From: Picosynechococcus sp. PCC 7003
GTDB lineage: Bacteria > Cyanobacteriota > Cyanobacteriia > Cyanobacteriales > MRBY01
Direction: 5' to 3'
DNA length: 64,000 nt
Assembly (NCBI RefSeq): GCF_001693255.1
Contig: NZ_CP016476.1
Coordinates: 124,001 to 188,000 of the forward strand
Shown piece after piece: positions 2,900 through 33,223 of the stretch (the stretch's first letter is position 1; the number at the start of each line of letters is the position of its first letter). The translations under genes were made by a program, and so were the position numbers. The notes under the pieces are model-generated. The model had not been told where the DNA came from, did not search any database, and saw nothing but the letters and a program-made list of their open reading frames with translations.

Positions 2900-2942
2900 T
2901 ACCTATCTCCTTATCTCCTCAAATTCTTATCTCCTCAAATTC
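2900..2942. repeat. short GGAGAT-type tandem repeats between cmr2 and the four-helix-bundle gene
   Basis: A perfect 16 bp tandem repeat (TTATCTCCTCAAATTC on the plus strand) occupies 2911-2926 and 2927-2942. It is followed toward the gene start by two more CTCC-containing steps. The cmr2 stop codon (2935-2937) lies inside it. On the minus strand the repeat multiplies Shine-Dalgarno-like GAGGAG motifs ahead of the inserted gene. Similar GGAG-rich steps occur on the other side (2507-2542), upstream of cmr3. Confidence 0.7.
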
Positions 2943-5919
2943 TTCTATTCCGTAAATTAAATGCTGCCGCTTTGAGCCAGTTTTTGGCTTCTTTTTCCCT
3001 CTCTTTGGAGTTGGTTGTATTCCAGAGGCAAATTAGGAATTCGGTTAGGCGTGATCGTAAAAAAGTTTTTTGATCTTCATTCAGGTTGCTACGCCGCTCC
3101 ACAAAAGCACTGACCCATGGGGCGATCGCCACTGAAGTCGGAATAGGATGCTGTTCTAAAAGGGTTGCCGCCGTTTCAAAGGTTGAAGCTTCCAGACCTG
3201 TGATTTCTAAGAGTTGTTGCCAAGCTCGGAAAGTCTCGAATTTACAGGTGGCTTTGAGGATATTGCCATTGCCATAGATCACCCGCAACTGCACCGCATC
3301 TTTCTTTTTCCTGCTCTCCTTACCTTCTAGGGTGAAATCTTCATACTCATGATCTTTGGCTCCTTCTTCTGCTTCCCAGAGATTTTCGAGGGCGATCGCC
3401 AAAGGGACAGAATGGTGGGCAATGACTAAACCAAAACTAATAGTTGCATTTTTACCCATCGTAAAGAGGGGGCGATCAAGGTTGTCGTGGTTGCCTTGAT
3501 ACTGCCAATAATCACCTGTACGCTCAAACTCTGCTTGATCATCCTCAGCTCCCCGAAAGGCTTGGCGGATATCCCAGAGCCATTTATCCCATTCCCACAG
3601 ATTTGTATAAGCCAGGACATCATCACCGCCGCTGTAAATTAACCGTCCGGCATAGCGTTCTTCGGTGAGGTAGGGGGCAAGTTTATTGGAAAAGTCGAGG
3701 AGGGCACGGCTCAACGCATTGTGAGTTGCTGGCCCCATCCGTTTTGTGACCTGGCTAAACTTTTCAAATAATTGATAAAACGTCTTATCTTCTCCCTTCT
3801 TATCTTCTAATTTGTTCAATAATTCTGAAGCAAAATATTTCTCATAAGCCTCCATTTTGGTTCCCTTCAACCAATCACTCATCCCGTCGCCATCTCCAGC
3901 GGCGATCGCATACCAACTGGCGGGATTATTTTGGGGATAGAATTTCTGAATTTCGTTCTGTAGATCCTGACGATAAACTTTTTGAGCTTCCTTATCGAGG
4001 TTTTCTAACTCCTCTACGAGCCAGCCTGCATTTAATAGTCTTGGATGGGGCAAATTCTCAAATAACGGATCATGAGTCTCATCAATCCATGGAATGCCCC
4101 ACTCTTGCCGGACAAAATTCGCGATTTCATGGTGGTCTGCCGTAATTTTTGTCCTAATCGCACGACAAGCATCTTGATATTGATTTAAAGCTTCTCCATT
4201 TTTCTCACTTTGGGTTTTGAGGTAACCCGCAACGCCGACGGTTAAATCAGGATAATAAGCCTTTAATTCGGTCGGATCTCGATCCAATAGTTTGGGTAAA
4301 ACTTTTTCTAAACCGCGCTTAACAGTTTCAGTGGCGTTGAGTTGCTCGATCCCATCAAACAAGCCTGCATCCCGTTGCCAATAATGTTGCGCTTCCCCCT
4401 CAGTGAGCCAATCACGATGTTGGCCATTGCCTTGGGGATGGACGACGGGCCCCAAGCCAGAGATCGTAGAGCGGGTGCCAAAAGCGGTCGGAAGTTTCCA
4501 GTTACGGGCATTTTTAACGGTATTGAGAGCAAGGCGGGTCTGGCCAAAAATATCGGCCCACCATGATCCGGCATTTAAGCTGCCTGCATAATTACGATTG
4601 CGTTGTTCGATAAATTGCGCAGTTGCTTTCTCAAAAAAGTCCCGTTCAGCATCCGTGAAAAGGTTGCCATTGAAGGCATCATTTTGCGCCTTAATCCAAT
4701 CTTCTAATTTTTGTTCTTTTTCTTTTGGTGCGGGAATACCAACACTCTTAAAGCTGCTATTTTTAGCACCGATCGCCACCGCACTCCAATAGGTTTGCCA
4801 CTGGGCATCCAGCCAACCTTGCCAACTGGGATCACTCTCCTGGAGATCTCTTTGCCAACGGCGATCGCCTTGCAATTCTGCCAGGACTTCCTTCGCAATT
4901 TCGCGCCATGCATCAAGTAAAAAATTCTTTGCTGATTGCATTGCTGCAGCTACTTGGGCTTCCGGTAACACCAACATGATGACGTTGGGAAATCCGGCAG
5001 TGAGCAGTTGACGGTCATCGGGTGGCTGGATCCAGTCCCCAAATTCTGAATGTTTTTGCAATAGCCAATGATCAATTAGCGGTTGGCCATAAAGACTGGG
5101 ATAGAGAAAACAATCTGCGCCGTATTTGTGAGCCAATCGCCAGCAGACTTTCGCAGAAAGATAATGCAAAATCCATGACCCCGCCCAAAAGTCCTTCATT
5201 TTACGACTGGCTTTAATTAGTTCTTGGACGGGACTAAAGGTAAACACCGCCAGATAAGGGTGAGATTTCGGGGTATTTTGAGCACCTTTTGGGATATCGT
5301 CTAACTCGGTATCGTATCCCGCTAAGGCTCCGGCTAAGGCAGCGGTCATACTGGCATGACTCCAGATCGAACCGTCGGGTAAGCGAGTTTCGGCGGGCAT
5401 TAGAAAACTTGCTGCGCCAAATTTATCAGCGACAGCTTGGGGTAAACAACGCCATAGCCACCAGAAACAAGCCTGGGCAGCTTCAGGATCGTCACGAATT
5501 TCAGCGGGCATTTGGTCAATGAGATCGGCTTCGGTCTGTTCTAGGTAAGTTTTTCTGCTGCTCTGCCCAAGGATTTCAGCGTGGTTTTGGAGTCGGAGGG
5601 GCAATTTCTCCCCAGACAATAGGTGCGATAACTCTAGACCTTCTGCACCGTAGTCTACGGCTGTGCGGATGTAGTGGATAATGCCGCGATCGCTGGCGGA
5701 AGAAATGAGATCACATAAGCCGACATGATCTAACCATGTGCCACTAAGCTCAGATGCTTGTTTTTCCTCGCTCGATTTCGGAGAAGCCCAGCCTTCCATA
5801 CAAGCAAGCTTTTCCCATAACCCTTCTTTGCCACGCCCCGGATTCCCATAGAGTGCTTTGAGGGCGGGATCATGAAGTAGACCCCAAATTTTTGCCTGCC
5901 AATATGCTTTACCTGCCAC
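2935..5919 (-). CDS. cmr2: Cmr2/Cas10, large subunit of the type III-B complex
   Basis: The 994 aa protein is the signature subunit of type III CRISPR systems. The palm-domain motif SGGDD places GGDD at about residues 764-767, the active site that makes cyclic oligoadenylate on target RNA binding. Near the N-terminus LLHDPALKAL contains an HD pair (H16, D17), compatible with the HD nuclease domain. A central KASRKMKDFWAGSWIL stretch is typical of the first palm/D1 region of Cmr2. The start is GTG at 5919 with GAGGAG ten bases upstream. It is the first gene of the minus-strand cmr operon. Cyclic-oligoadenylate effectors of the Csx1/Csm6 type were not found in the window. Confidence 0.95.
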   Translation of the reverse strand: MAGKAYWQAKIWGLLHDPALKALYGNPGRGKEGLWEKLACMEGWASPKSSEEKQASELSGTWLDHVGLCDLISSASDRGIIHYIRTAVDYGAEGLELSHLLSGEKLPLRLQNHAEILGQSSRKTYLEQTEADLIDQMPAEIRDDPEAAQACFWWLWRCLPQAVADKFGAASFLMPAETRLPDGSIWSHASMTAALAGALAGYDTELDDIPKGAQNTPKSHPYLAVFTFSPVQELIKASRKMKDFWAGSWILHYLSAKVCWRLAHKYGADCFLYPSLYGQPLIDHWLLQKHSEFGDWIQPPDDRQLLTAGFPNVIMLVLPEAQVAAAMQSAKNFLLDAWREIAKEVLAELQGDRRWQRDLQESDPSWQGWLDAQWQTYWSAVAIGAKNSSFKSVGIPAPKEKEQKLEDWIKAQNDAFNGNLFTDAERDFFEKATAQFIEQRNRNYAGSLNAGSWWADIFGQTRLALNTVKNARNWKLPTAFGTRSTISGLGPVVHPQGNGQHRDWLTEGEAQHYWQRDAGLFDGIEQLNATETVKRGLEKVLPKLLDRDPTELKAYYPDLTVGVAGYLKTQSEKNGEALNQYQDACRAIRTKITADHHEIANFVRQEWGIPWIDETHDPLFENLPHPRLLNAGWLVEELENLDKEAQKVYRQDLQNEIQKFYPQNNPASWYAIAAGDGDGMSDWLKGTKMEAYEKYFASELLNKLEDKKGEDKTFYQLFEKFSQVTKRMGPATHNALSRALLDFSNKLAPYLTEERYAGRLIYSGGDDVLAYTNLWEWDKWLWDIRQAFRGAEDDQAEFERTGDYWQYQGNHDNLDRPLFTMGKNATISFGLVIAHHSVPLAIALENLWEAEEGAKDHEYEDFTLEGKESRKKKDAVQLRVIYGNGNILKATCKFETFRAWQQLLEITGLEASTFETAATLLEQHPIPTSVAIAPWVSAFVERRSNLNEDQKTFLRSRLTEFLICLWNTTNSKEREKEAKNWLKAAAFNLRNRRI

Positions 5920-20143: not shown

Positions 20144-20821
20144 TTAGCGGTTCATAATTGCTGCTTCACTCTTTTCGTAAAAGCGACGATATAGCAATTC
20201 TAACTGGCCACCATATTCTTGGATAAAAGCTAAGTTGCGTTGATATAACCCATTAAAGAGATTGGCAAAGAGTAAGGTAAAGATCGCCACAACCAAACCC
20301 ATTACCGTAGAAACCAATGCTTCACTAATCCCACCCGTCACCCCGGCAGCGTTGGTATTGCCCACATCACCAATGTTGAGCGCCGAAAAAGATTGCATCA
20401 ATCCTAAGATTGTTCCCAACAGTCCCAGGAGTGGCGAAACGGCAATAATTGTGTCAAACACAGTATTAAAGCGTTTTAAGGTCGGAATTTCGGCCTGGGT
20501 AGCACTTTCGAGGGCGAGGCGAAACTCTTCACTGTTGGGATTTTCTAAATCGAGGGCTTCTAAGAAAATCCGGGCAATGGGCAGATCCGCATTGCGCTTC
20601 AAGAATTTCATGGCATTGAACGGATCTTGACGATACAAACCGAGGGCGTCCCGGACGACTTGACGCTGCCGACGATTAATCCGCCACCAAAATACAGATC
20701 GTTCGATAATACAAGCTACGCCAGCCAGAGAAAAAATAAGCAACGGGTAGGCGACGATGCCACCGGCGGCAAAGAAATTTGTGATGTTCATAGTGGTATG
20801 GGTTGAAATGTGCGAGGGCAT
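20144..20821 (-). CDS. exbB: ExbB/TolQ-type proton channel protein
   Basis: The 225 aa protein has the MotA/TolQ/ExbB pattern: a first membrane helix (VAYPLLIFSLAGVACIIE), a cytoplasmic loop, and two C-terminal helices with FDTIIAVSPLLGLLGTILGLM and ISEALVSTVMGLVVAI. Five ExbB would surround an ExbD dimer to form the proton-driven motor. The first ATG is at 20821; a second at 20791 (MNITNFFAAGG) gives a more typical N-terminus and may be the true start. No TonB gene is adjacent. Confidence 0.92.
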   Translation of the reverse strand: MPSHISTHTTMNITNFFAAGGIVAYPLLIFSLAGVACIIERSVFWWRINRRQRQVVRDALGLYRQDPFNAMKFLKRNADLPIARIFLEALDLENPNSEEFRLALESATQAEIPTLKRFNTVFDTIIAVSPLLGLLGTILGLMQSFSALNIGDVGNTNAAGVTGGISEALVSTVMGLVVAIFTLLFANLFNGLYQRNLAFIQEYGGQLELLYRRFYEKSEAAIMNR

Positions 20822-21277
20822 TTAAGAATTATTATCTGCCACCTCTGCCCAGATGACTAGACATTAACTCAAATTATTCTCAACAACTTTACTCTGGTAT
20901 ATCAAAATATCTAGCAAAAATAAAGTGTTTAATTTAGGGCTACAATCTCTAAACATACTTTTAATGCCTAATTTTGGCGGATTCTAGCTTCTCAATGCAG
21001 CTCTACGGCAATCTCCAATAAAAAATATTGGTGATGAAAAAGCTTGACATTATCTCTAATAATCTCTAAATTGTCTAATTTATCGCGAGGAATTCACAAT
21101 AAATGTGAAAAAAGTTGCTTGAACCAATGGGCGACAGTCCCCATCCCCCTTAGAGCGAGGAAAGATAACTCGTCGATGTAGCGAACCGGAATCGACAATG
21201 CTCAAATTATTGCAAGAGAGTCATCTAACAGTGGTAGCCTCTGTATGTAGGCTCGACATCTGTGAAAAAATTGCTAA
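20822..21277. other. intergenic region, no gene seen
   Basis: These bases upstream of exbB hold no ORF of interest. The first 150 are AT-rich and should contain the exbB promoter. The part nearer 21278 is more GC-rich and may belong to the decayed insertion that carries the nrtD relic. Confidence 0.4.
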
Positions 21278-21420
21278 GCTCTGTTGATGTCTGACAAAGT
21301 CGTGATGCTGACCAACGGTCCCTAGGCTACAATTGGGCAAGTTTTAACGGTATATCTCCCCCGACTCCGTCACATTCATGAACTACGGGAAACCCAAAAA
21401 TACTATGATCTGCGCAATGA
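21278..21420 (+). pseudogene. nrtD/nrtC-type ATPase 3' fragment
   Basis: From GCT at 21278 one frame reads ALLMSDKVVMLTNGP, then a TAG stop, then ATIGQVLTVYLPRLRHI...YYDLRNE. This matches, residue by residue, the part of NrtC/NrtD ATPases just after the H-loop (compare DRLVMMTNGPHAKIGEIL and YELRNY in the intact gene at 29560-30396). Codons upstream of 21278 no longer match, and the fragment stops at a MITE scar at about 21419. It is a relic of a second nitrate/bicarbonate-type ATPase gene. Confidence 0.75.
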
Positions 21421-21443
21421 GAGGTCATTTATAAACAGGCTCT
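21419..21443. mobile_element. MITE remnant: two terminal repeats back to back
   Basis: GAGAGGTCATTTATAAACAGGCTCT joins the left terminus (compare AGAGGTCATTTATGAAG at 8257) directly to the right terminus (compare ATCAACAGGCTCTTA at 8391). The core is missing, as left by internal deletion or imprecise excision. Confidence 0.5.
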
Positions 21444-21476
21444 GAGGCCTTGAATTTTCTCGAACGCTATCAGTAA

Positions 21477-22106
21477 ATGAACCGTTTTTTGGTTCGCCTA
21501 GTCAGCATGAAAAAACTTTCTGAAAAACTACACCACTATTTTTTTGAGGAGGAGCGTCCTGAGAGAGTTAGTCTGGCTAATGTTTTTGCTCTCACCGAGG
21601 AAAGGTTATTTGGTTTTCCTCTTGCTTTAATTGCTTTTCTGAGTATTTTTGCAATTCCTGGCACCTCCTTTATTTTTGGGATAGCGATGTTGTCGATCAC
21701 TCTGCAACTGTGTCTAGGGCAATCTAAACCTTGGGTGCCCCAGAAAGTCCTAAAAACTTCTTTTCCTCTACCGCAAATTCAGCGATTTATGGGTTATCTC
21801 ATTCCCTGGTTAAAAAGGATAGAAAAAATCACAAAACCCCGTCTCACACCCATTTGTCACAGTCTACCGGGACGAATTATTCTGGGGATTATTTTATCAG
21901 CTATGGCTCTATTGGTGATTTTACCGATTCCTGGTGCGAATACGGTGCCGGCGATCGCCATCTTTTTTTCGGCCCTTGGGCTCCAGGAAAACGATGGAGT
22001 CTTGAGCTTATTAGGGGTGGCGATCGCCTTGGTTTTTATCGGCATCCTCATTAGCCTCATTTGGACGGGCAGTAATGTATTCCAATTTATTCATCAATAT
22101 TTTTAA
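21477..22106 (+). CDS. exoD: ExoD family membrane protein (exopolysaccharide synthesis)
   Basis: The 209 aa protein matches the ExoD plan: an N-terminal helix-rich region, then paired hydrophobic stretches (LALIAFLSIFAIPGTSFIFGIAML and IILGIILSAMALLVILPIPGANTVPAI) with the repeated PGT/PGAN turns typical of the family. ExoD was first linked to exopolysaccharide production in rhizobia; the biochemical role is unclear. ATG at 21477 is used; a second ATG at 21507 is possible. The gene lies just right of the MITE/nrtD relic and converges with the P-type ATPase. Confidence 0.8.
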   Translation: MNRFLVRLVSMKKLSEKLHHYFFEEERPERVSLANVFALTEERLFGFPLALIAFLSIFAIPGTSFIFGIAMLSITLQLCLGQSKPWVPQKVLKTSFPLPQIQRFMGYLIPWLKRIEKITKPRLTPICHSLPGRIILGIILSAMALLVILPIPGANTVPAIAIFFSALGLQENDGVLSLLGVAIALVFIGILISLIWTGSNVFQFIHQYF

Positions 22107-22146
22107 ACTTTTTCTTCGTGAATACCAGCCCAGTCAAAACTTCTTA

Positions 22147-25089
22147 TTAAGAAGGGAAATGTTTATCTTTTGGGGCAAAGAATCCTTTTCGTAGTTCATC
22201 GATCCCCAAGATTAACGGTGGGCAAATAATTAATAAAAGCCATTGCCAAGGTGCTAGGGGAGCGGTCTGGAAAATATTTTGGAAGAACGCACTTTTGGTA
22301 ATGGCAATCACCAACATCCACTCAGTGGCAATGCCCACCCAAATCAGTGGATTGGAAAAAAATCCCAGACGAAAAATCGAGACATTTTCAGAACGACAGG
22401 CAAACACATTTCCATCTTGGCAGGCGACAATCACGGCGAGGGTCATGGTGGTGGCCTGGGCATAGATCGCGGTGGTGGCCGCATCAGCGCCATGGTGCAG
22501 GAGGTCGGGGGTAATGGCCTGGAGATCAGCCAGACCATAGCCATAACTCCACCAAACAATAAAAAAGCCCACCATACCGAGGGTGGCTTCAATTAAGCCC
22601 AAGAAACAGTAGGCGCGAATCAACAGCGATCGCCCCAGGAGATTTTGGGATTTTTTACGGGGAGCTTGGGTCATGATTCCCACTTCTGCTGCTTCGGTGC
22701 CCAATGCCAAAGCCGGGATCATATCCGTGCCCAAATCCACCGCTAAAATTTGCATAATAACCAAAGCTGGGGGAATTTTAAGGGCGACCATCAACAAAAA
22801 GGGGACTACCTCTGCCACATTAGAAGCCAAGATATAGGTGATAAATTTGCGGATATTTTGGTAAACGGTGCGGCCCTGTTCTACGGCACTGATAATCGTC
22901 GCAAAGTTGTCATCGGTGAGCACGATATCCGCCGCTTCCCTGGCGACGTCGGTACCATTTAATCCCATGGCGATGCCAATGTGGGCCGCCCGCAAGGCCG
23001 GGGCATCGTTCACGCCATCCCCAGTTACCGCAACCACTTCTCCAATGTCTTTATAGGCTTGTACCAGGCGTAACTTTTGTTCGGGGGACATGCGCGCAAA
23101 TACGAGACCTGACCGATATTTCAGGATTTGCCGCAGTTGAGCATCGGATAGGTGGCCCATGCCTTCCCCGGTGACGACCCGCACCTGCTGATTAACAATG
23201 CCAATTTGTTGGGCGATCGCCTGGGCTGTGAGACCATAGTCCCCCGTCACCATCGTCACCTTAATGCCAGCGGTATGACATTGGGCGATCGCCTGCTTCA
23301 CCTCCGGGCGAGGCGGATCAAACATCGCAATTAAACCAATAAAAATTAAATCCTGCTCTAGCTCTTGGGCGCGCAGATCGACCAAATCCCGTTGTCCCCG
23401 TCGCGCCGCCACCCCCAGCACCCGGAACCCCTGGGCCGCAAGGCGATCATTGGCTTGGACTACCTCTTCCCACTGTTCATGGCCCAAAGTTTGGATCGAC
23501 CCATTGCGCAACACCGCCTGACAATGGCGCAACACTTCCAATGGTGCCCCTTTTGTAAAGGCCATACAGGGCAGTTCGCTTTGCCAAATATCTGATTCTT
23601 GCCAATCTAAAACCACCGTCATCAGGCGCCGGCGAGAATCAAAGGGAATTTCCCGTAATCGGGGATATTGTTGTTGTAGATGTTGAAGATTTAAGCCGGC
23701 CTTCGTTGCAACAACGATCAAAGCGGCTTCGGTAGGATCCCCAATTTCCTGCCAGCGACTCGGTGTGTCGAGGTGGACAAGCTGGGCATTGGAACAAAGG
23801 GCGGCCCCCGTCAGTAAAAGATCTATTTTCCAGCGGGCAGTGAAATCTGCGGCTAAATTCACGGTGCCAGATCCAGGGTCGTAACCGGCACCAGTGACTT
23901 CGATTAAAAAGGGTTGAATTTCTCCAGGTTGGCCATGATTAGGGGTTTGCAAAGGCGGTTGAACGGGCAGTTCTGCTTCAGTTAACCAGGGCAACCAGAG
24001 GTAATGGACGGTCATTTCATTTTTGGTGAGGGTGCCCGTTTTATCAGTACAGATCACCGTGGTGGCACTGAGGGTTTCCACCGCAGACAGACGGCGCACC
24101 AGGGCATTTTTGCGCACCATCCGCCGGACGCCCATCGCCAAGGCCAGGGTAACGGTGGGCAGCAACCCTTCTGGCACGAGGGCAACGATAATGCCGATGG
24201 CGAAGACGAAACTTTCCCGCAGTTTCATCCCCACTAAAAATTCTGTCAGCAGAAAAACAATCACCCCCATCGTCAGGGCGATCGCCGTAATAATCCGAAC
24301 AATCTTGCCTACCTGAACTTCGAGGCTACTGGGTTCTCGTTTAACATTGGTCGTCAGGTGCGCCACATGGCCAAATTCTGTTTGGGCACCAGTGCCATAG
24401 ACGACCGCCACCCCCCGCCCCGAAGAAACTGTTGAACCCGCTAAGAGTAAATTAGCAATTTCCGCAGGATTTGTTTTTTCTTGGGTGGGTTGTTCCCCTT
24501 GCCGGAGGGGCTGGCCGCCGCGCACAGATGCTGTTTCTCGCACACGTACCGGATAGGCATTCCGCGCCACAGGTAAAGACTCCCCCGTCATCACCGAAAG
24601 ATCAAGATATAAACTTTCTGAAGACACCAACCGGGCATCGGCAGAAAGGCGATCGCCTTCTTCAAGTTGCATCACATCTCCCGGTACCAGTTCCACCGCC
24701 GGAATCGATTGGAGTGCACCATCTCGATAAACCTTAACCTGGGCTGGCAACACCTTTTTTAAGGCCGCTAGGGATTTTTCTGCCTGGAACTCCTGCCAAA
24801 AACTAAAGATCCCATTAACCCAGATCACAGTCCAGATCGCCCAACCCAACTCCGGCGTTCCCGACACAAACGCTAAAATTCCTGCCACCCACAATAGCAA
24901 AGCCATAAAGTGGGTCACTTGATCCAAAAACTTGAGCCACAACGGCCGTTGAGGTGGCTGTGGTAGAGCATTCGGCCCAAATTTTTCTAAACGTTGCTGC
25001 GCTGCCTGGGCCGATAAGCCGTCAGGTTGAGATTCTAGGACAGCATAAACATCTTCCGGAACAAATGTCCAAATATGATTTGGTTCCAT
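22147..25089 (-). CDS. P-type cation-transporting ATPase, P2 class
   Basis: The 980 aa protein has every P-type landmark: TGES in the actuator domain, ICTDKTGTLT with the phosphorylated D349, KGAP in the nucleotide domain and TGDGVNDAPAL in the hinge. The M4 motif VALVPEGLLPTVTLALA and the M6 stretch ILAVDLGTDMIPALALGTE resemble Na+/K+-ATPase-type (P2C) pumps more than SERCA-type ones. The N-terminal cation-ATPase domain and C-terminal six helices are present, so length is normal. Substrate may be Na+, K+ or Ca2+; this cannot be settled by eye. ATG at 25089 is chosen over the GTG three bases upstream. Confidence 0.92.
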   Translation of the reverse strand: MEPNHIWTFVPEDVYAVLESQPDGLSAQAAQQRLEKFGPNALPQPPQRPLWLKFLDQVTHFMALLLWVAGILAFVSGTPELGWAIWTVIWVNGIFSFWQEFQAEKSLAALKKVLPAQVKVYRDGALQSIPAVELVPGDVMQLEEGDRLSADARLVSSESLYLDLSVMTGESLPVARNAYPVRVRETASVRGGQPLRQGEQPTQEKTNPAEIANLLLAGSTVSSGRGVAVVYGTGAQTEFGHVAHLTTNVKREPSSLEVQVGKIVRIITAIALTMGVIVFLLTEFLVGMKLRESFVFAIGIIVALVPEGLLPTVTLALAMGVRRMVRKNALVRRLSAVETLSATTVICTDKTGTLTKNEMTVHYLWLPWLTEAELPVQPPLQTPNHGQPGEIQPFLIEVTGAGYDPGSGTVNLAADFTARWKIDLLLTGAALCSNAQLVHLDTPSRWQEIGDPTEAALIVVATKAGLNLQHLQQQYPRLREIPFDSRRRLMTVVLDWQESDIWQSELPCMAFTKGAPLEVLRHCQAVLRNGSIQTLGHEQWEEVVQANDRLAAQGFRVLGVAARRGQRDLVDLRAQELEQDLIFIGLIAMFDPPRPEVKQAIAQCHTAGIKVTMVTGDYGLTAQAIAQQIGIVNQQVRVVTGEGMGHLSDAQLRQILKYRSGLVFARMSPEQKLRLVQAYKDIGEVVAVTGDGVNDAPALRAAHIGIAMGLNGTDVAREAADIVLTDDNFATIISAVEQGRTVYQNIRKFITYILASNVAEVVPFLLMVALKIPPALVIMQILAVDLGTDMIPALALGTEAAEVGIMTQAPRKKSQNLLGRSLLIRAYCFLGLIEATLGMVGFFIVWWSYGYGLADLQAITPDLLHHGADAATTAIYAQATTMTLAVIVACQDGNVFACRSENVSIFRLGFFSNPLIWVGIATEWMLVIAITKSAFFQNIFQTAPLAPWQWLLLIICPPLILGIDELRKGFFAPKDKHFPS

Positions 25090-25329
25090 CACTGCGACCC
25101 ACCAGAAAACACAATTAATTCGATGCTGTCACAACCCACGCCAAAACAAACATCTTCCCCCGTAAGGATCAACGATTCTTTACATCATCATCTACTGGAA
25201 TGACTTGCTCACATCACAGCATAAACATTGCAGTTGCCATAGCCACAATCCCAGAAAAAATTCACGATGCAGTACCCGAAAGCATTTTTTGAACCAATTT
25301 TAGATAAGTTTTAGTTATTTTTTTGCCCA

Positions 25330-25527
25330 GAAAGACTCAAGCCCAGCTTATTTACATGTCATGGTCTTAGGACTATATTAAATCTCACATTCATAGTCGA
25401 AAGACTATCAATAGGCCAAGTTTAAGGGCAATGTCCTTGGGGATTCTGCCCTTTCTCTCTCACGGTTTCCCGTCACTGATCCTTCGATCAATCGAGTACA
25501 GCACCTAGTCAAAGTAAACACAAATAT
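25330..25527 (+). promoter_or_regulatory. ancestral nrt-type operon promoter/leader region
   Basis: The sequence lies directly in front of the nrtA relic. It shares a run of matches with 32209-32330 (TTTACAT..TCAT, CATAGTC.AAA.ACTAT, AGGC.CAA), as expected if both descend from the same operon promoter. It should now drive the porin and nrtCD genes. I did not find a clean NtcA site (GTA-N8-TAC). Confidence 0.5.
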
Positions 25528-25605
25528 ATGAATCAATACAGTCGTCGTAAATTTTTGATCATCACTGGCATGGCAGCTTACCCATATTTTCTTTGTAGTA
25601 ATTAG
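25528..25605 (+). pseudogene. nrtA/cmpA-type 5' remnant
   Basis: The frame ATG at 25528 to TAG at 25603-25605 encodes 25 residues, MNQYSRRKFLIITGMAAYPY and five more. NrtA/CmpA solute-binding lipoproteins start with exactly this kind of twin-arginine signal (SRRxFL followed by a hydrophobic stretch). The reading frame then ends, and 78 bp later a porin gene begins. Nothing else of nrtA or of the permease gene nrtB is left in the window. Confidence 0.75.
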
Positions 25606-25683
25606 AGTTTTAGCACAGAAACAATTGGAACTTTCTTGGGCATTTTAAGCAGTTTTATATTTATCGAGGAGGAATCTACTGTT

Positions 25684-27414
25684 ATGAGACAACAGAAACT
25701 TTTTTGGCTGACTACTTTGATCGTTGGGGGCAATATTTTTCAGGCTGCTACGCCACTACAGGCCCAGGAAATTAATTCGGAAACATCGCTGAGTTCACCA
25801 ACACTACAGGAGGCTCGTTATCTAGCCTCGGCCTCCATGGGACAAATGGCCTCAGTATCGAGATTACGGGACGTGAAGCCGACGGATTGGGCCTATGAAG
25901 CCCTACAAAGTCTAGTGGAACGGTATGGTTGCATTGTTGGTTATCCGGATCAAACATTCCGTGGCGATCGCCCCCTGAGCCGTTATGAATTTGCCGCCGG
26001 ACTAAATGCTTGCCTCAATGCCCTAGAACGGCAGATCCAAGGCAATAATGCCGATGTATCCTCCAGCGATCTCGCGACCCTCCGGCGATTGACCAACGAG
26101 TTTCAGGCGGAATTAGCTCCCCTCGGCGCAAGGGTTGATGATCTCGAAGCCCGCACCAGTGAACTCGAAAACCAACAATTTTCAACGACCACAAAACTGA
26201 ATGGGGAAGCTATTTTCTCTATCAGTGGGGCAACGGGTGGCGAACCAGAGGGCAACGATGCTCAGATTACCTTCAATAATCGTCTGCGGCTGAATTTGAC
26301 CACCAGTTTTACCGGAAAAGATGCCCTGATTACTGGCTTACAAGCCTACAATTTCTCGGCGGGTAAATCTATTACAGGTACAGGTAATTTTGCCGAAACT
26401 CTCTTTCCCAATGATGCCTCTATCCTTGGGGATGGCATGACGAACCTCGCCTGGGAACCACAATTTGCTGGTTTGAATCCACAAAATCTACAACCCAGTT
26501 GCGGTAACAATAGCCTTTGTCTGTATAAACTCCTCTATGTTGCGCCGATCACAGATAAATTAACGGCATTTATTGGCCCGAAGGCGGAAGTTACCGATGC
26601 CTTTCCGGCGATTCTTCCTTTTGCCAGTGAAGGCCAGGGGGCACTTTCTCGCTTTGCAACTTTGAATCCAGTATTGCGGATGTCTGGGGGAACCAGTGGT
26701 ACAGGACTCGCTTCCGCAGCTGGCTTTATCTATAAACCCAATGATGTCATCGATTGGCGAGCACTCTATGGGTCAGTGAATGCGGCAATCCCTGGTAATG
26801 AGGGCTTTCCGGGGACGCCGTTGGGGGCTGGCTTGTTTAATGGCAGTTTTATTGCTGCAACGCAATTGACGCTTTATCCCAACGACAAGCTTGATCTAGG
26901 TCTGAACTATGCCTACAGCTACCACCAGATCAACATTGCGGGTACGGGTTTAACAGGAGCTGAGACACGTATTTTAGGAGATCTACCGCTGACCACCCCG
27001 GTGCAGTTTAACTCTTTTGGGGCAACGGTGAATTGGCGTGTTAGTCCGAAGGTAAATCTCACGGGTTATGGGGCGTACATTATGACGGATCAGGCGGGGA
27101 GTGGCTCTGCCTATACAAATCTAAGCAGTTGGATGGCGGGTCTGTATTTTCCAGATGCATTCGCGAAGGGCAATGCGGCAGGGATTTTGTTTGGTCAACC
27201 ACTTTATCGGGTGGATGCGGGTAATGGGGCGAGTTTAAGTCCGGCAAACATTGGCGATCGCCAAACCCCCTACCAACTGGAAGCCTTTTATCGCCATCAA
27301 ATCAATGATCATATCAGCATTACGCCGGGGGCATTTGTGATTTTCAATCCGGAAGGAGATGCCGAAAATGAAACAACCAGCGTTTTTGCGTTGCGTACGA
27401 CTTATACCTTCTAG
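25684..27414 (+). CDS. SLH-domain OprB-type porin (SomA-like)
   Basis: The protein starts MRQQKLFWLTTLIVGG (ATG at 25684, GAGGAGG eleven bases upstream) with a signal peptide ending near PLQAQ. An SLH domain follows: DVKPTDWAYEALQSLVERYG and LSRYEFAAGLNACLNAL. Then comes a short coiled coil (ARVDDLEARTSELENQ) and a porin barrel to the terminal aromatic F. This is the standard layout of cyanobacterial major outer membrane porins, often annotated as iron-uptake porins. It is 576 aa. Only 35 bp separate it from the nrtC-type gene, so it appears to be the first functional gene of that operon. Confidence 0.92.
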   Translation: MRQQKLFWLTTLIVGGNIFQAATPLQAQEINSETSLSSPTLQEARYLASASMGQMASVSRLRDVKPTDWAYEALQSLVERYGCIVGYPDQTFRGDRPLSRYEFAAGLNACLNALERQIQGNNADVSSSDLATLRRLTNEFQAELAPLGARVDDLEARTSELENQQFSTTTKLNGEAIFSISGATGGEPEGNDAQITFNNRLRLNLTTSFTGKDALITGLQAYNFSAGKSITGTGNFAETLFPNDASILGDGMTNLAWEPQFAGLNPQNLQPSCGNNSLCLYKLLYVAPITDKLTAFIGPKAEVTDAFPAILPFASEGQGALSRFATLNPVLRMSGGTSGTGLASAAGFIYKPNDVIDWRALYGSVNAAIPGNEGFPGTPLGAGLFNGSFIAATQLTLYPNDKLDLGLNYAYSYHQINIAGTGLTGAETRILGDLPLTTPVQFNSFGATVNWRVSPKVNLTGYGAYIMTDQAGSGSAYTNLSSWMAGLYFPDAFAKGNAAGILFGQPLYRVDAGNGASLSPANIGDRQTPYQLEAFYRHQINDHISITPGAFVIFNPEGDAENETTSVFALRTTYTF

Positions 27415-27449
27415 AACTAACTGATCACCATTTTGCTTGGTAGAAACTT

Positions 27450-29450
27450 ATGAGTGTTTTTGTTGCGGCTGATAGTATTGATAAAGTATTCCCGTTGTCG
27501 GGGGGTGGTGAATATATTGCCCTCAAGGGGATTGATCTAGAGATCAAAAAAGGCGAATTTATCTCGTTAATTGGTCACTCTGGTTGTGGGAAATCAACGC
27601 TCTTGAATATGATTGCGGGTTTAGATTTACCGACGGAAGGAATTGTCACATTAGAAGGACAGCGGGTGAAGCAACCAGGCCCAGATAAAATGGTGATCTT
27701 TCAGAACTATTCACTGCTGCCTTGGTTGACGGTATATCAGAATATTGCTCTGGCTGTCGATGAGGTGATGAAGGGAGTTTCGGCCCAGGAACGACGCGCC
27801 CTCGTCGAGGAACACATTGATCTGGTCGGCCTGCGCCATGCTGTGGATAAATTACCAAAAGAATTGTCTGGGGGAATGAAACAGCGGGTGGCGATCGCCC
27901 GCGCCCTCTCGATCCGTCCGAAGTTGTTGTTACTGGATGAACCCTTTGGGGCGTTGGATGCTCTCACACGCGGTAACTTGCAAGAGCAGTTAATGCGCAT
28001 TTGTGAGCGGTATGAAATGACTTCGGTGATGGTGACCCACGATGTGGATGAGGCGGTGTTACTGTCTGACCGGATTGTGATGTTAACCAATGGCCCCGGC
28101 TCCAACATTGGCGGCATTTTGGAGGTGGATATTCCCCGCCCCCGCAAACGGATGGAAGTGGTTAACCATCCCAGTTACTACAGTTTAAGAAGTGAGATTA
28201 TTTATTTTTTGAACCAACAGAAACGGATCAAAAAATTGCGGGCTAAACCAGTCCAAACCATCGCCCGTCATGGTCTAGAAAAGGTGAATTTGGATATCGG
28301 TTATGTGCCGTTAGTCGCCTGTGCTCCCCTTGTTGTGGCAAAGGAAAAAGGTTTCTTTGAAAAGCATGGTTTAGATGAGGTTAATCTGATTCGGGAAACC
28401 AGTTGGCGCGGCATCGTGGATGGCATTGCGGGGGGTTACCTCGATGGGGCACAAATGCCTGCGGGGATGCCCACTTGGTTAACGGCAGGGGGTCACCAAA
28501 ATCAACCGTTGCCCGTGGTGAGTGCCCTGACCATGACCCGCAATGGCAATGCGATTACCCTCAGCCAAAAACTGTATGAGAAGGGGGTTTACACGGCGGC
28601 TGATTTTAAACGGATTTTGTTGGAGTCCGACGGCGATCGCCACACATTGGGGATGGTGCATCCTTCGTCCATGCATAATCTGCTGTTGCGGTACTGGCTC
28701 GCGGCAAACAAGATCAACCCCGACCAAGATGTGGAACTCAAAACCATTCCCCCAGCGCAAATGGTGGCGGATCTCAAGGCGGGAACCATTGACGGCTACT
28801 GTGTGAGCGAACCTTGGAACCTGCGCGCCTCGATGGAAGGGGCGGGGTTTAGTATTGCCACCGACCTCGAAATTTGGGATGGTCACCCCGGTAAGGTGTT
28901 GGGGGTGCGGGAAGATTGGGCGATCGCCTACCCGAATACCCATGTGGCTCTGGTGAAAGCGTTACTGGAAGCCTGTGCCTACTGTGCCGACCCGAACCAT
29001 GAACAGGAAATCCGCGAATTATTAGCCGATCGCAAATACCTGAGCACCGATATTGATTACATTCACTTGGGCGATCCAGAAGGCAAAACCTGTAGCCTCG
29101 GTAATCCCGTGGAATATTCCCACCACCTCTTTTTCGGCGATCGCCTAAACCGTCCGAGCCGTACCGAACACCTCTGGATGATGACCCAAATGGCACGCTG
29201 GGGCGAAATTCCCTTCCCCCGTAACTGGGTCGAAATTTTAGAGCGGGTCTGTCGAGTGGGAGTCTTTAGCACCGCCGCCCGTGAACTAGGGTACGAGGTG
29301 AATTACCAAAGGGAACCCATTGTACTTTTTGATGGACAAACCTTTGATGCCGAAGATCCCATTCACTATCTCAATGAAGTCACCATGCACAACAATTTCA
29401 CCATTGCCGAAGTGCATTTATCTGCCCCTAAGATTCTTGTTACTACCTGA
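27450..29450 (+). CDS. nrtC: NrtC/CmpC-type ABC ATPase with solute-binding domain
   Basis: The 666 aa protein fuses an ABC ATPase (GHSGCGKST Walker A near residue 42, LSGGMKQR signature, LLLDEPFGALD Walker B, MVTHDVDEA H-loop) to a C-terminal domain homologous to NrtA/CmpA from about residue 280 (GYVPLVACAPLVVAKEKGFF, VSEPWNLRASMEGAGF). Only NrtC and CmpC of nitrate and bicarbonate transporters have this fusion; the tail is a regulatory nitrate- or bicarbonate-sensing domain. Which ion applies here is open. nrtA and nrtB are absent nearby, so a partner permease must be encoded elsewhere or the system is impaired. Confidence 0.9.
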   Translation: MSVFVAADSIDKVFPLSGGGEYIALKGIDLEIKKGEFISLIGHSGCGKSTLLNMIAGLDLPTEGIVTLEGQRVKQPGPDKMVIFQNYSLLPWLTVYQNIALAVDEVMKGVSAQERRALVEEHIDLVGLRHAVDKLPKELSGGMKQRVAIARALSIRPKLLLLDEPFGALDALTRGNLQEQLMRICERYEMTSVMVTHDVDEAVLLSDRIVMLTNGPGSNIGGILEVDIPRPRKRMEVVNHPSYYSLRSEIIYFLNQQKRIKKLRAKPVQTIARHGLEKVNLDIGYVPLVACAPLVVAKEKGFFEKHGLDEVNLIRETSWRGIVDGIAGGYLDGAQMPAGMPTWLTAGGHQNQPLPVVSALTMTRNGNAITLSQKLYEKGVYTAADFKRILLESDGDRHTLGMVHPSSMHNLLLRYWLAANKINPDQDVELKTIPPAQMVADLKAGTIDGYCVSEPWNLRASMEGAGFSIATDLEIWDGHPGKVLGVREDWAIAYPNTHVALVKALLEACAYCADPNHEQEIRELLADRKYLSTDIDYIHLGDPEGKTCSLGNPVEYSHHLFFGDRLNRPSRTEHLWMMTQMARWGEIPFPRNWVEILERVCRVGVFSTAARELGYEVNYQREPIVLFDGQTFDAEDPIHYLNEVTMHNNFTIAEVHLSAPKILVTT

Positions 29451-29559
29451 AAATGCTGACAAAAAGGTGAGTGCCCCCCAGAGACATCAATGAACGAACC
29501 GTTGAAATCTTGATTGACGCCACTCACCCTTCCATTACTGAATAGTTGATCACTGAATT

Positions 29560-30396
29560 ATGCAAACCCTACCCCAAACCACTGCATCCATGCATTCTAG
29601 CTCGCCTGAACCTTTTCTCGTCATTGAAAACCTTTCTAAGGTTTATCCTACTGCCCATGGCCCCTACACCGTTCTCGATGGCGTGAATCTCACTGTGAAT
29701 GAAGGAGAATTTATCTGTGTCATCGGTCACTCCGGTTGCGGTAAATCAACTTTATTAAATATGGTGTCTGGCTTCGCTTACCCAACGGCGGGATCTGTCC
29801 GCGTTAATGGCAAAGAAATCGAAAAACCAGGCCCCGATCGCATGGTGGTCTTTCAAAACTATGCCCTTTTGCCTTGGCTCACTGCTTTTGAAAATGTCTA
29901 CCTTGCTGTTGATGCCGCCTTCCCCAACAAACGGGAACAGGAAAAACGGGTGATCGCCAAAGACCATTTAGCGATGGTGGGACTGAGTGAGGCGATGGAC
30001 AAAAAACCCACCCAAATTTCCGGGGGGATGAAACAGCGGGTTTCCATTGCCCGAGCGTTAGCTATCCGTCCTGAAGTGTTGATTCTTGATGAACCCTTTG
30101 GCGCACTCGATGCGATCACCAAGGAAGAACTTCAGGAAGAATTGCTGCAAATTTGGAACGACCACCGTTGCACCGTTCTGATGATCACCCACGACATCGA
30201 CGAAGCCCTCTTTTTGTGCGATCGCCTCGTGATGATGACCAACGGCCCCCACGCCAAAATTGGTGAAATCCTTGAAATTCCTTTTTCTCGTCCCCGCGAT
30301 CGCGACCGGATTATGGAAGATCCAGAATATTATGAATTGCGGAACTACGCCCTCGACTTTCTCTACAATCGTTTTGCCCATGACGAAGCTGCGTAG
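29560..30396 (+). CDS. nrtD: NrtD/CmpD-type ABC ATPase
   Basis: The 278 aa protein is a single ABC ATPase: GHSGCGKST Walker A, ISGGMKQRVSIARALAI signature, VLILDEPFGALD Walker B, LMITHDIDEALFLCDRLV. It would form the heterodimeric motor with the NrtC-type protein. The ATG at 29560 begins MQTLPQTTASMHSS. The 109 bp gap after nrtC contains an inverted repeat (GGTGAGTG ... CACTCACC), possibly an mRNA stabiliser or partial attenuator. A Rho-independent terminator follows the stop. Two broken copies of this gene's 3' end are visible at 21278 and about 32438. Confidence 0.9.
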   Translation: MQTLPQTTASMHSSSPEPFLVIENLSKVYPTAHGPYTVLDGVNLTVNEGEFICVIGHSGCGKSTLLNMVSGFAYPTAGSVRVNGKEIEKPGPDRMVVFQNYALLPWLTAFENVYLAVDAAFPNKREQEKRVIAKDHLAMVGLSEAMDKKPTQISGGMKQRVSIARALAIRPEVLILDEPFGALDAITKEELQEELLQIWNDHRCTVLMITHDIDEALFLCDRLVMMTNGPHAKIGEILEIPFSRPRDRDRIMEDPEYYELRNYALDFLYNRFAHDEAA

Positions 30397-30432
30397 TCAT
30401 TCGTTTTTCAAAAGTTTCCTCCATCGAGCTAT

Positions 30433-30470
30433 ATCTGTTCTAATCTAGACAATTAGGACAGATTTTTTTC
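30433..30470 (+). terminator. Rho-independent terminator of the porin-nrtCD operon
   Basis: ATCTGTTCTAAT, a seven-base loop and ATTAGGACAGAT form a nearly perfect stem followed by TTTTTTCTTTTT, 37 bp after the nrtD stop. Confidence 0.9.
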
Positions 30471-30490
30471 TTTTTAAAACTATCAAGCCA

Positions 30491-30519
30491 TAAAAAAACG
30501 ATAGACGATTAATCTATCG
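30491..30519 (-). terminator. Rho-independent terminator for the minus-strand pair
   Basis: Read on the minus strand, CGATAGA-ttaatcg-TCTATCG is followed by seven T. It lies 49 bp after the stop of the 30568-30810 gene and faces the nrtD terminator. Confidence 0.8.
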
Positions 30520-30567
30520 CATCTCGTGGATTTTTTGAATGAGTAAATCGAACTAACAATGACTAAT

Positions 30568-30810
30568 CTAATCGATTCCGATAGGCATTGTGAGTGCTGA
30601 ATTGATTTCAGAATCCGTTGGTGCAGTAGTAACCTCTGGCATGATTTCTTTAAACATTAATCCCGATAGGAGTCCGAAAGTAATCCCTAAACAGAGGAGC
30701 CAAGCATGGGATGCATTAATAATACAAATCAAGCGGCGATCGCCACTATAAACTTGAAGAGACCAACCGAAATTATTTTTATCTTGTAGTGACTGTGGAA
30801 GCTTATGCAT
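30568..30810 (-). CDS. small hypothetical membrane protein
   Basis: The 80 aa product has one clear membrane helix (WLLCLGITFGLLSGLMF, about residues 37-53) after a polar N-terminal half (SLQVYSGDRRLICIIN). It follows the Mo-nitrogenase-C-domain gene by 25 bp on the same strand and is followed by a good terminator, which supports real expression. No family was recognised. Confidence 0.55.
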   Translation of the reverse strand: MHKLPQSLQDKNNFGWSLQVYSGDRRLICIINASHAWLLCLGITFGLLSGLMFKEIMPEVTTAPTDSEINSALTMPIGID

Positions 30811-30835
30811 GATGGAAGAATTCTTGAACTGTTAA

Positions 30836-31099
30836 TTAACAATAACGGTGGCCATCCTCATGGCAAACATCGGCTAAATAAGAAAGCGCCCGAAACTGTA
30901 AACCAATTAACTCTTCATAAAAGGAATTCAGCTTACACAAGGGGGGGATCTCAATTATTACTACACCAAAAAGATTTATCTTTCGTTCAAAAGGACAGCG
31001 AGTAGGAATAACCCGGCAAATTAGACATGCTGTGATTGGATTACTAATTTCAATTTGACTGAGATGCTGACATACAGATTGCAGGGGATGATGTTTCAT
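30836..31099 (-). CDS. Mo-dependent nitrogenase C-terminal domain protein
   Basis: The 87 aa product carries ACLICRVIPTRCPFER, INLFGVVIIEIPPLCKLN and FYEELIGLQFRALSYLADVC. This is the short cysteine-rich domain named after the C-terminus of certain nitrogenase-linked proteins (Mo-nitro_C) but found as a stand-alone protein across cyanobacteria, including non-fixers. Its function is unknown. No nitrogenase gene is nearby. The ATG at 31099 begins MKHHPLQSVCQHL. Confidence 0.75.
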   Translation of the reverse strand: MKHHPLQSVCQHLSQIEISNPITACLICRVIPTRCPFERKINLFGVVIIEIPPLCKLNSFYEELIGLQFRALSYLADVCHEDGHRYC

Positions 31100-31376
31100 G
31101 ACCTTAACTCGATGAACAGTTAAACAAATTGATTAACCTATGTAATCTCCTTCTAGAATAAACATAAAAATAAAAGATTGCTTCTGACGGGTTATATGGA
31201 TATAAATTTTGTTTGATAACTTTTTCTTAACTTTTAAGCATGATAAATTCAGCCAATGTAAAAGATTAGCTAAAATTAAGGAAGTATTTTACAAGATATT
31301 TGAATTAAATCCAGAAAGACCAAATCCCAAGTCCCGTCTCAAGCTGTCACCTTAATATTTTTTACCTCCATGACTC

Positions 31377-32009
31377 ATGTTTCAAACTTTAACCAAAAAT
31401 AGTGCGGCGATCGCCTTTGTACTTTTGGGTTCTATCACATTTGCTCCTGGGGCAACTTCCCAAACCAGCACAACTCCTTTGTTACAGGCTGAAGATTTTC
31501 AGGGATTGGTATATTACCAAGACCCAAATACGAGGGGAATGCCCATTAATCTTCCTGGTATTTTCATCGGTCTGCCTAGGGAAGCGAGCAGTCAAGGGGG
31601 TTGGTTGTTGGATATTCCGAATAATGATGTGTTTGCACCAAGTTCTTTGGGTGTCAATATTTTTCAATTTGATCAGCAATATTTTTTATTCTTTGACTCC
31701 ATCGCTAATTTTGACGATGGCAGAGCCTATAGTCGCATCTTGGATGTCATAGAAATTCCCGCTGATGTCGTCCTGCTACGTTGTTTAGAAAGTGCGAGCG
31801 AAACATCAGAAACCATCGCATTTTTAAATACTGAAGAGCAGGCAATTGTTGAAGCCCAAGCCCCCAGTGCCATGGATGGAATTTTAGCTGAATTGCAAAA
31901 TCCGACGATGCTTTATTCAGTCGATTCTCGTCGCTTGTCCATTGAGGCTATTTCTGGCGAAGGTTTTACGTGCAGAAGTTTTTCGCCTATTTATATAAAT
32001 CTTGAATAA
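31377..32009 (+). CDS. secreted hypothetical protein
   Basis: The 210 aa protein has a signal peptide (MFQTLTKNSAAIAFVLLGSI, cleavage near PGATSQ) and a mature domain rich in Asp, Phe and Ile (GVNIFQFDQQYFLFFDSIAN). Two cysteines (LLRCLES and FTCRSF) could form a disulfide. No family was recognised. It stands alone downstream of an AT-rich 277 bp gap that should hold its promoter. Confidence 0.65.
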   Translation: MFQTLTKNSAAIAFVLLGSITFAPGATSQTSTTPLLQAEDFQGLVYYQDPNTRGMPINLPGIFIGLPREASSQGGWLLDIPNNDVFAPSSLGVNIFQFDQQYFLFFDSIANFDDGRAYSRILDVIEIPADVVLLRCLESASETSETIAFLNTEEQAIVEAQAPSAMDGILAELQNPTMLYSVDSRRLSIEAISGEGFTCRSFSPIYINLE

Positions 32010-32208
32010 TCACCTATTGTCTCTTGTCTAAAAAGACTGCTTTGCTCCAAGCATTAGAAAATTTTTTCTAGAAATTCAAGCCAAAACTCCCCTCAACCTC
32101 CGGCAGTTTGGGGAATTGAGCGATGCTTCACTGGCGTGACTCTGGGGGCGATCGCCTCCTAAAAAACGGTGTTTGCATAAGTTTTACTTATCTTTAGTCT
32201 TTGGAATG

Positions 32209-32580
32209 CCAAGGCTTAGCCTGTTTACATTTCATTGAATAATGGCTATACTAAAACTTAATTCCATAGTCTAAATACTATTTAGGCTCAAATCACCAGC
32301 CTTAAAAGCAAAGTTCTATGGGGTTTTGCCTTTTTCCTCAAAATGCCCTCTCTGATACTTCAGTGGGATACAACATTTCAAAAAAAAGACTATGTGCCAA
32401 TACAAGCATTCTATTTTTTAGGTTATTGCAGCCATTAATTGAATGCCCAACTACGCCCTCAATTTTCGCTACAGTTGCCTGGTCCATAACAATTGGATGT
32501 AGTCATAGTTTTTTACAAGTTTCCTCCATCAAGCTATATTCGTCTCGATCTAGGCAATCGGGGCGATTTTTTTTTACTTT
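32209..32580 (+). pseudogene. deletion scar of a second nrt-type operon
   Basis: The left part (32209-32330) resembles the promoter region at 25350-25450. The right part (about 32438-32580) resembles the last codons of nrtD plus its terminator: AACTACGCCCTC, then TTTC.CTACA, GTAGTCAT, AAGTTTCCTCCATC.AGCTATAT and a stem-loop with T-run (CGTCTCGATCTAGGCAATCGGGGCGATTTTTTTTT region). The genes between are gone. Coding potential is lost. The similarity was judged by eye and needs an alignment. Confidence 0.6.
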
Positions 32581-32589
32581 TTAACGGCA

Positions 32590-32630
32590 AAGGGTTGAAA
32601 TCCCCACTGCTTGCGGCGGGGTAGTTCACA
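32590..32630. mobile_element. possible IS200/IS605-type end
   Basis: GGTTGAAATCCCCACTGC, followed by TTGCGGCGGGGTAGTTCAC, forms a GC-rich hairpin like those at ends of IS200/IS605 elements. No transposase ORF is present. The remaining bases to 32938 show no gene. Confidence 0.35.
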
Positions 32631-32938
32631 AAGAGTTAAAAGGAACAAAATAGTAAAAGATTTATTTTATTGCCTAGGGTATGGCGCTGGACTTCATTAA
32701 TACTGTATTAATCTTACTGGTATTGTCACCGCTGATTTGATTTTTAGAATTCTTCGCCAAACTGATTATCTATAAAACAATTTCTGACCAAATCAATCTT
32801 GATAAAGTCTAGGGATAATACTTAATATGGAACGCATCTTACAAGACTTGATTAACTCAGTTTTCACTACAGCAGATAGGCGGGTGCGTTACACTCTAAA
32901 CGTAATAATTTTACGCTAAAGCTCAGGAGATAACATCG

Positions 32939-33223
32939 ATGCCCCAGGCTATTTGGAATGGTGCAGTGGTTGCAGAAAGCGATCGCTGTGAAGTGGTAGA
33001 AGGAAACTATTATTTTCCCCCTGATGCCATTAAAACAGAATATTTTAAGCCGAGTACTACCCACACCACCTGTTCATGGAAGGGGCAGGCCAGCTATTAC
33101 ACCCTTGCAGTGGCAGGAAAAGAAAATAAGGATGCAGCCTGGTATTACCCAGAACCCAAGGAAAAAGCGGCGAATATTAAAGGCTATGTGGCGTTTTGGC
33201 GGGGTGTAAAAGTCGAACCTTAG
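32939..33223 (+). CDS. DUF427 family protein
   Basis: The 94 aa protein shows the DUF427 pattern: AIWNGAVVAESDRCEVVEGN, YYFPPDAI, KPSTTHTTCSWKGQASYY and AAWYYPEPKEKA...GYVAFWRGVKV. Length is typical for single-domain members. CAGGAGA sits just upstream of the ATG. The family is widespread, small and of unknown activity. It stands alone, followed by a 317 bp gap. Confidence 0.88.
   Translation: MPQAIWNGAVVAESDRCEVVEGNYYFPPDAIKTEYFKPSTTHTTCSWKGQASYYTLAVAGKENKDAAWYYPEPKEKAANIKGYVAFWRGVKVEP

Follow-up and report, generated by a model that had tools for sequence, protein, structure and literature searches.

An operon that opens with a 25-codon stub resembling the start of a solute-binding protein gene, runs on into a complete porin gene and ends with two transporter ATPase genes raises the question of what it once encoded and what its remaining genes may still do. 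It lies in the window, the 64,000-nucleotide stretch analysed here, which corresponds to bases 124001-188000 of contig C3 in a genome of 3.35 Mb and three contigs. BCT1 (CmpABCD) is an ATP-driven bicarbonate importer in which CmpA performs the capture and CmpB forms the channel. The reading favored here, with a probability of about 0.78, is a relict BCT1 operon with the ancestral form cmpA-cmpB-porin-cmpC-cmpD, whose porin is clearly under selection, probably for anion entry at low carbon, and whose cmpC and cmpD are leftovers. Such a locus is ordinary in kind, being gene loss in a known operon, and unusual in detail, in that an orphaned porin-cmpC-cmpD unit comes with a record of its decay from strain to strain. 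No published description of a cmp remnant of the window type was found among the open-access papers listed, nor any mention of porin or cmp in the accessible part of PMC5742850.

Anatomy and identity of the operon

The succession of stub, complete SLH porin gene, two intact ATPase genes and terminator-like hairpin given in the preliminary description is confirmed in its coordinates (Table 1). Also borne out is the absence of solute-binding and permease genes between stub and porin: the reading frames of the window contain no cmpA or cmpB there, and no nrtA or nrtB. The stub reads MNQYSRRKFLIITGMAAYPYFLCSN. In a search with an HMM built from 71 CmpA/NrtA N-termini, chosen for a twin-arginine-like motif, its frame ranks first among 2001 window segments (E 3e-5; runner-up 0.26). 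The match consists mostly of this motif and hence supports, rather than proves, an origin from cmpA. The stub of Picosynechococcus sp. PCC 7002 has 7 extra bases, reads MNQYSHRKFLITTGVAAGSLSIFSL and is nearer to CmpA than the window stub, in line with the original view of the stub as the start of an NrtA/CmpA-type gene. An internal deletion, presumably a single event, would have joined the first ~20 codons of cmpA to the sequence just before the porin, removing the remaining cmpA and all of cmpB. By eye, the right end of the deletion bears no clear likeness to the cmpB-porin spacer of G012, a genome of the same order. The probability that an assembly error dropped cmpA-cmpB is negligible: nothing beyond the gap itself suggests one, and the junction recurs in the records of PCC 8807 and PCC 7002, which differ there by substitutions and by 7 nt.

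Table 1. Features of the operon and its surroundings, in window coordinates
Feature	Coordinates	Strand	Basis
3′ relic of nrtD, one TAG and one TAA inside	21276..21476	+	alignment of relatives; end set by eye
Sigma-70-like promoter, TTTACA-17-TATATT	25351..25379	+	10/12 matches; such sites no commoner than in shuffles
Degenerate NdhR/CcmR-type box, ATGG-N8-CTAT, one mismatch, 32 bp upstream of the exact box	25361..25376	+	motif scan
Exact ATAG-N8-CTAT box	25393..25408	+	motif scan; identical in PCC 8807 and PCC 7002
cmpA 5′ stub, 25 codons (ATG at 25528) and stop codon (ending at 25605); putative scar of the cmpA-cmpB deletion	25528..25605	+	reading frame, alignment of relatives, HMM
Porin with SLH and OprB domains (576 aa), native to the cmp operon	25684..27414	+	domain matches, comparison with G012, dN/dS
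cmpC, ATPase domain and SBP-like regulatory domain, intact	27450..29450	+	domain matches, tree, PDB
cmpD, ATPase, intact	29560..30396	+	domain matches, 85% identity to CmpD of G012
Terminator-like hairpin (30433-30463) with T run	30433..30473	+	hairpin scan; shuffled sequences give such matches at least as often
Duplicate cmp promoter (68.6% over 105 nt) carrying an exact ATAG-N8-CTAT box (32266-32281)	32177..32281	+	alignment
Duplicate of the 3′ end of cmpD with the terminator region (73.6% over 148 columns, E 2.9e-17)	32440..32584	+	alignment

Both ATPases exceed the NCBIfam ntrCD cut-off and had been named nrtC and nrtD, names that now give way to cmpC and cmpD. The NrtABCD nitrate importer resembles the window operon in its four-gene plan and two-domain C ATPase, but the window CmpC falls outside the NrtC clade. 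Among 92 C subunits placed in a quick tree, with group labels (cmp or nrt) assigned by identity to the window protein, it lies within the Cmp-type clade, on a branch with 100% SH-aLRT, and outside the Nrt type, as the sister (99%) of CmpC from G012; the sole nrt-labelled row inside the cmp clade, L115, has 65% identity, under the labelling cut-off. In a ranking of PDB chains, CmpC chains 9ua0, 9u9z and 9ua1 reach ~1110 bits with the window CmpC, compared with ~850 (852) for NrtC. G012 carries the complete operon cmpA-cmpB-porin-cmpC-cmpD, and the window proteins are 69% (porin), 84% (CmpC) and 85% (CmpD) identical to its products. On the strength of these sequence comparisons, the two ATPases are CmpC and CmpD of BCT1, not NrtC and NrtD. 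As regards BCT1 membership, the CmpC-type ATPase with its SBP-like regulatory domain and the CmpD ATPase are present, CmpA is absent save for the stub, and CmpB is absent. Lacking the capture by CmpA and the channel of CmpB, BCT1 would import no bicarbonate.

The porin and its neighbors in related strains

The porin consists of an SLH domain and an OprB barrel and belongs to family NF033921 ("iron uptake porin", a family name only). In Synechocystis PCC 6803, according to the accessible text of two papers, slr0040, slr0041, slr0043 and slr0044 belong to one operon together with slr0042, a putative porin gene, and are induced by low CO2 (PMC3479031), and the cmp operon is listed as slr0040 to slr0044, slr0042 included (PMC7281370). 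With G012 as the sequence proxy, this operon shares porin, cmpC and cmpD, in that order, with the window, which differs in that cmpA is cut to its stub, cmpB is gone and the operator is of the NdhR/CcmR type, without a CmpR site. Because the porin already occupies the same place in G012 and, by these papers, in Synechocystis, no exchange is needed; cmpA and cmpB were deleted. The earlier proposal that a permease had been exchanged for a porin does not survive this comparison. Insertion of the porin in place of nrtA-nrtB in an nrt operon is suggested by the gene order of the window strain alone and is highly improbable, given the position of the porin in the complete operons and the Cmp type of the ATPases.

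The surroundings of C genes were surveyed in a set selected by likeness to the window CmpC. It comprised 94 loci (12 neighborhoods from the examined genomes, two NrtC loci of the genus and the 80 top-ranked of 576 relatives), reduced to 91 by dropping L069, L071 and L073, which lie on the same contigs as other loci. Within this set, three of the 91 loci have a porin on the same strand at most 6 kb upstream of C: between B and C in G012, and between A and B in Pseudanabaena mucicola FACHB-723 and Phormidium tenue FACHB-1050. At locus L145, nrtA is preceded by two weak porins (36-37%), which lie beyond the span counted. Strains PCC 73109, PCC 7117 and NIES-970 have no porin at the cmp locus, which counts against a general need for it, and the best porin match in genomes G001 and G002 is 44% only. 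In G005, of the same genus, a porin 79% identical to that of the window is found, and nothing else in the 14 kb fetched around it matches window positions 21001-33000; without cmp neighbors, such a porin can evidently stand alone. That locus (L162, contig C7) lies ~2.2 kb from a gene that by eye resembles a SulP-type transporter.

The dN/dS of the porin (0.04-0.09 in three strains, Nei-Gojobori) indicates continued selection on this gene. The PCC 7002 porin is 97.6% identical to that of the window, and the PCC 7002 protein G0011, a homologue of Slr0042, is among the detected proteins in the part of PMC7880944 available; G0011 would correspond to the PCC 7002 copy of the window gene. Work quoted in the accessible part of PMC8707739 assigns about 80% of inorganic ion uptake to Slr1841, Slr1908 and Slr0042. 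The window porin probably helps anions to cross the outer membrane at low carbon.

Near matches to the window were found in five plasmid records, those of Picosynechococcus sp. PCC 8807, 7002, 73109 and 7117 and of Synechococcus sp. NIES-970, which makes it very probable that the window belongs to a Picosynechococcus plasmid. The preliminary description had called for a comparison with related strains; the stub-porin junction is common to the window, PCC 8807 and PCC 7002. The PCC 8807 plasmid locus (L048) has the same scar, operator and porin, but its cmpC and cmpD have recombined into one in-frame chimera and nrtB-nrtA-nrtD is retained. The chimera (L048:10358-11152, 264 aa) begins as cmpC and ends as cmpD, with the switch near codon 145-155. 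It is devoid of the CmpC SBP-like domain, and five residues in its CmpC part are never seen among 63 aligned CmpC, including S44F and T50A in the Walker A region. The porin locus on pAQ7 of PCC 7002 (L049) is again alike in scar, operator and porin; here cmpC and cmpD are gone and nrtB-nrtA-nrtD is kept upstream, whereas the window strain shows the reverse. PCC 7002 is joined at 27523|31352 (window coordinates), and the cmpC start remains. In PCC 73109 and PCC 7117 the entire unit is absent, with joins at 25222|31255 (window coordinates) that are about 25 nt apart and an IS1 beside the junction in PCC 7117; NIES-970 is also without the unit. Since the stub, the cmpC start in PCC 7002 and the PCC 8807 fusion are remnants, the series is read as loss rather than gain, the order of the events among strains being a reconstruction.

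Just upstream of exoD and a P-type ATPase gene, nrtB-nrtA-nrtD is annotated at full length in five related plasmids, and the window strain keeps just the last fifth or so of nrtD. This relic, together with the intact cmpC and cmpD, implies that the window strain lost nrtBAD and its relatives the reverse. The DNA upstream of the relic differs from that of the relatives, and a reading frame there (20144-20821) resembles ExbB by eye. Close strains show a carbon-uptake operon dismantled stepwise, with the outer-membrane porin kept in several. Its retention suggests that the porin is useful in its own right when carbon is limiting, and the strains offer natural deletions in which the roles of CmpC/CmpD and of the porin can be followed without CmpA and CmpB.

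The affinities of the strains change along the locus. Over the scar tract (25167-25962), 44 of the 53 informative sites unite the window with PCC 8807; in the left flank PCC 8807 groups with PCC 7002, and in the part of the porin that follows the window groups with PCC 7002. For each tract, the stricter scan found none of 2000 shuffles with site clustering as high. An earlier scan, with blurred and overlapping segments, had also placed three site patterns each beyond 2000 shuffles. Window and PCC 8807 differ at 11 of 860 sites over the scar (25159-26018, a span set by eye) and at far more in the flanks. These patterns indicate that homologous recombination has moved the scar stretch between strains, and the recombined tract perhaps replaced an intact cmpA-cmpB. 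Owing to this recombination, dN/dS alone is unfit for dating the orphaning. An intact cmpAB-porin-CD operon was not found in the genus (6 genomes and five plasmid records), so the intact ancestor is taken from another family.

Partners and state of CmpC and CmpD

Each of the 82 cmp/nrt loci with 3 kb or more upstream of C contains A as well as B. The nine of 91 loci with less than 3 kb were excluded: A and B occur in four of them and B by itself in three, and L117 and L123 lack both, their contigs starting at most 300 bases from C or inside it. A C gene orphaned from A and B is rare in this set, which is biased toward likeness to the window CmpC. A search for a stand-alone nrtB or cmpB, suggested at the outset, brought up no close CmpB anywhere in the genome. 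The best match has 38% identity and lies at C1:1108390; it is an NrtB-like permease that clears the family cut-off, and SBP and ATPase genes of its own adjoin it. A second NrtB-type permease is distant (26%). The genome-wide search for CmpA returned as best match the domain of CmpC itself (32%), followed by proteins of 34% and 25%. The chromosome also carries an NrtA/B/D-like transporter (L005:6477-9876) whose binding protein has, by eye, ~130 extra N-terminal residues; homologues of its parts occur in other members of the genus.

CmpC and CmpD themselves appear undecayed. Only one of the 214 CmpC codons that are invariant in 62 others is changed in the window, and none of the 105 CmpD codons invariant in 58 others; such low counts are usual for the set (median 0, maximum 8). 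Neutral changes since orphaning amount at the 5% level to at most about 0.0065 per site, and the synonymous distances from two strains are 0.16-0.66, depending on the gene. The parts shared with PCC 8807 have a dN/dS of 0.04-0.13. When half the scar-tract distance sets the age of the orphaning, the small number of changes in CmpC/CmpD has P 0.04-0.08 under neutrality since the tract moved. Drift under recent orphaning would thus be a borderline fit, neither excluded nor comfortable, and either selection keeps CmpC and CmpD or the orphaning was late.

Selection could act if the pair powered another NrtB-type permease, such as that at C1:1108390. This is unlikely. Rejection of drift above 0.0065 changes per site, the low dN/dS and the one permease above the cut-off speak for it, and the scar tract implies drift of roughly that size (P 0.04-0.08). 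Against it, the permease is only 38% identical to CmpB and has an ATPase gene of its own next to it, which also tells against the earlier suggestion that the ATPases serve a permease encoded elsewhere. Furthermore, PCC 8807 has fused and PCC 7002 has lost cmpC and cmpD, and the fusion has never-seen residues in the Walker A region. Given the near-identity of window and PCC 8807 over the scar, the scar may be a recent arrival, and the low dN/dS may predate the orphaning. It is similarly doubtful that CmpC/CmpD are retained as a working ATPase or sensor module (with another permease, or with SbtB) that relays a low-carbon signal without BCT1 import.

A purely regulatory role is very unlikely. 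The SBP-like domain of an orphan CmpC would titrate SbtB (or PII), and the operon would tune other bicarbonate transporters. The accessible text of PMC13249358 describes an interaction of SbtB with CmpC and another between PII and the NrtC domain; a P-II family gene lies ~1.3 kb from sbtA in the genome of the window strain, and CmpC is full length and conserved. However, PCC 7002 has no CmpC, the PCC 8807 fusion is without the SBP-like domain, and regulation gives CmpD no reason to persist. Because relatives discard cmpC and cmpD, fresh orphaning is preferred: the two genes are probably intact leftovers, orphaned not long ago, and the decaying operon that was the other original suggestion is the best fit, with decay under way in relatives.

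Promoter, operator and a second copy

The old promoter stands before the remaining genes, as had been supposed, and it retains an exact operator box. The consensus for NdhR/CcmR is ATAG-N8-CTAT in the accessible text of PMC13249358. Genome-wide, exact sites show no overall enrichment (24, vs 33 for the reversed control); from these counts, ~0.003 would be expected in the 437-bp gap. Another exact box lies ~80 bp before a LysR gene (C1:182622) that heads a run with a ChpXY (CupB-type) gene; from this setting, the LysR gene is presumably ccmR. A further one occurs ~120 bp ahead of sbtA and is itself preceded, at 0.6 kb, by a second; there is no exact box near the other ChpXY gene (C1:1978511). 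The genome encodes four clear LysR proteins and one weak match, and the cmp loci L115 and L136 are each accompanied by a divergent LysR gene with 52% likeness to that at C1:182622. With one mismatch allowed, the window contains 27 matches vs 17 expected, 11 of the 27 in CRISPR repeats. The CRISPR array runs from 9101 to at least 12841, with 53 copies found around the 36-nt repeat GTTTCCAATCTATTTGCTTCTCAGGTAAAGAGAAAC (30 listed); the minus strand carries a Cmr2/Cas10 gene at 2935-5919. One exact box, at 51554, falls within a reading frame and was attributed to chance.

CmpR sites follow the motif TTA-N7/8-TAA, and NtcA sites the motif GTA-N8-TAC. Neither of these motifs occurs in the promoters of the window, PCC 8807, PCC 7002 and G012. 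An ATCAAT-type site was dropped as the operator in favor of the ATAG-N8-CTAT box of PMC13249358. Judging from its sequence, the cmp promoter may confer induction by low CO2. With its exact NdhR/CcmR-type operator it now stands immediately ahead of the porin. Transcripts would still include cmpC and cmpD, and the surviving product would most likely be a low-carbon-inducible porin.

Downstream of the operon, the cmp promoter and the cmpD 3′ end recur as second copies (Table 1), separated by ~160 nt of which part still resembles the leader. The segment 32177-32584 looks like a tandem cmp operon collapsed to its two ends. All four relatives examined retain the box of this duplicate, altered at one or two inner bases. 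The same segment could yield a short CcmR-controlled RNA of ~300 nt (predicted; fold z-score -2.2).
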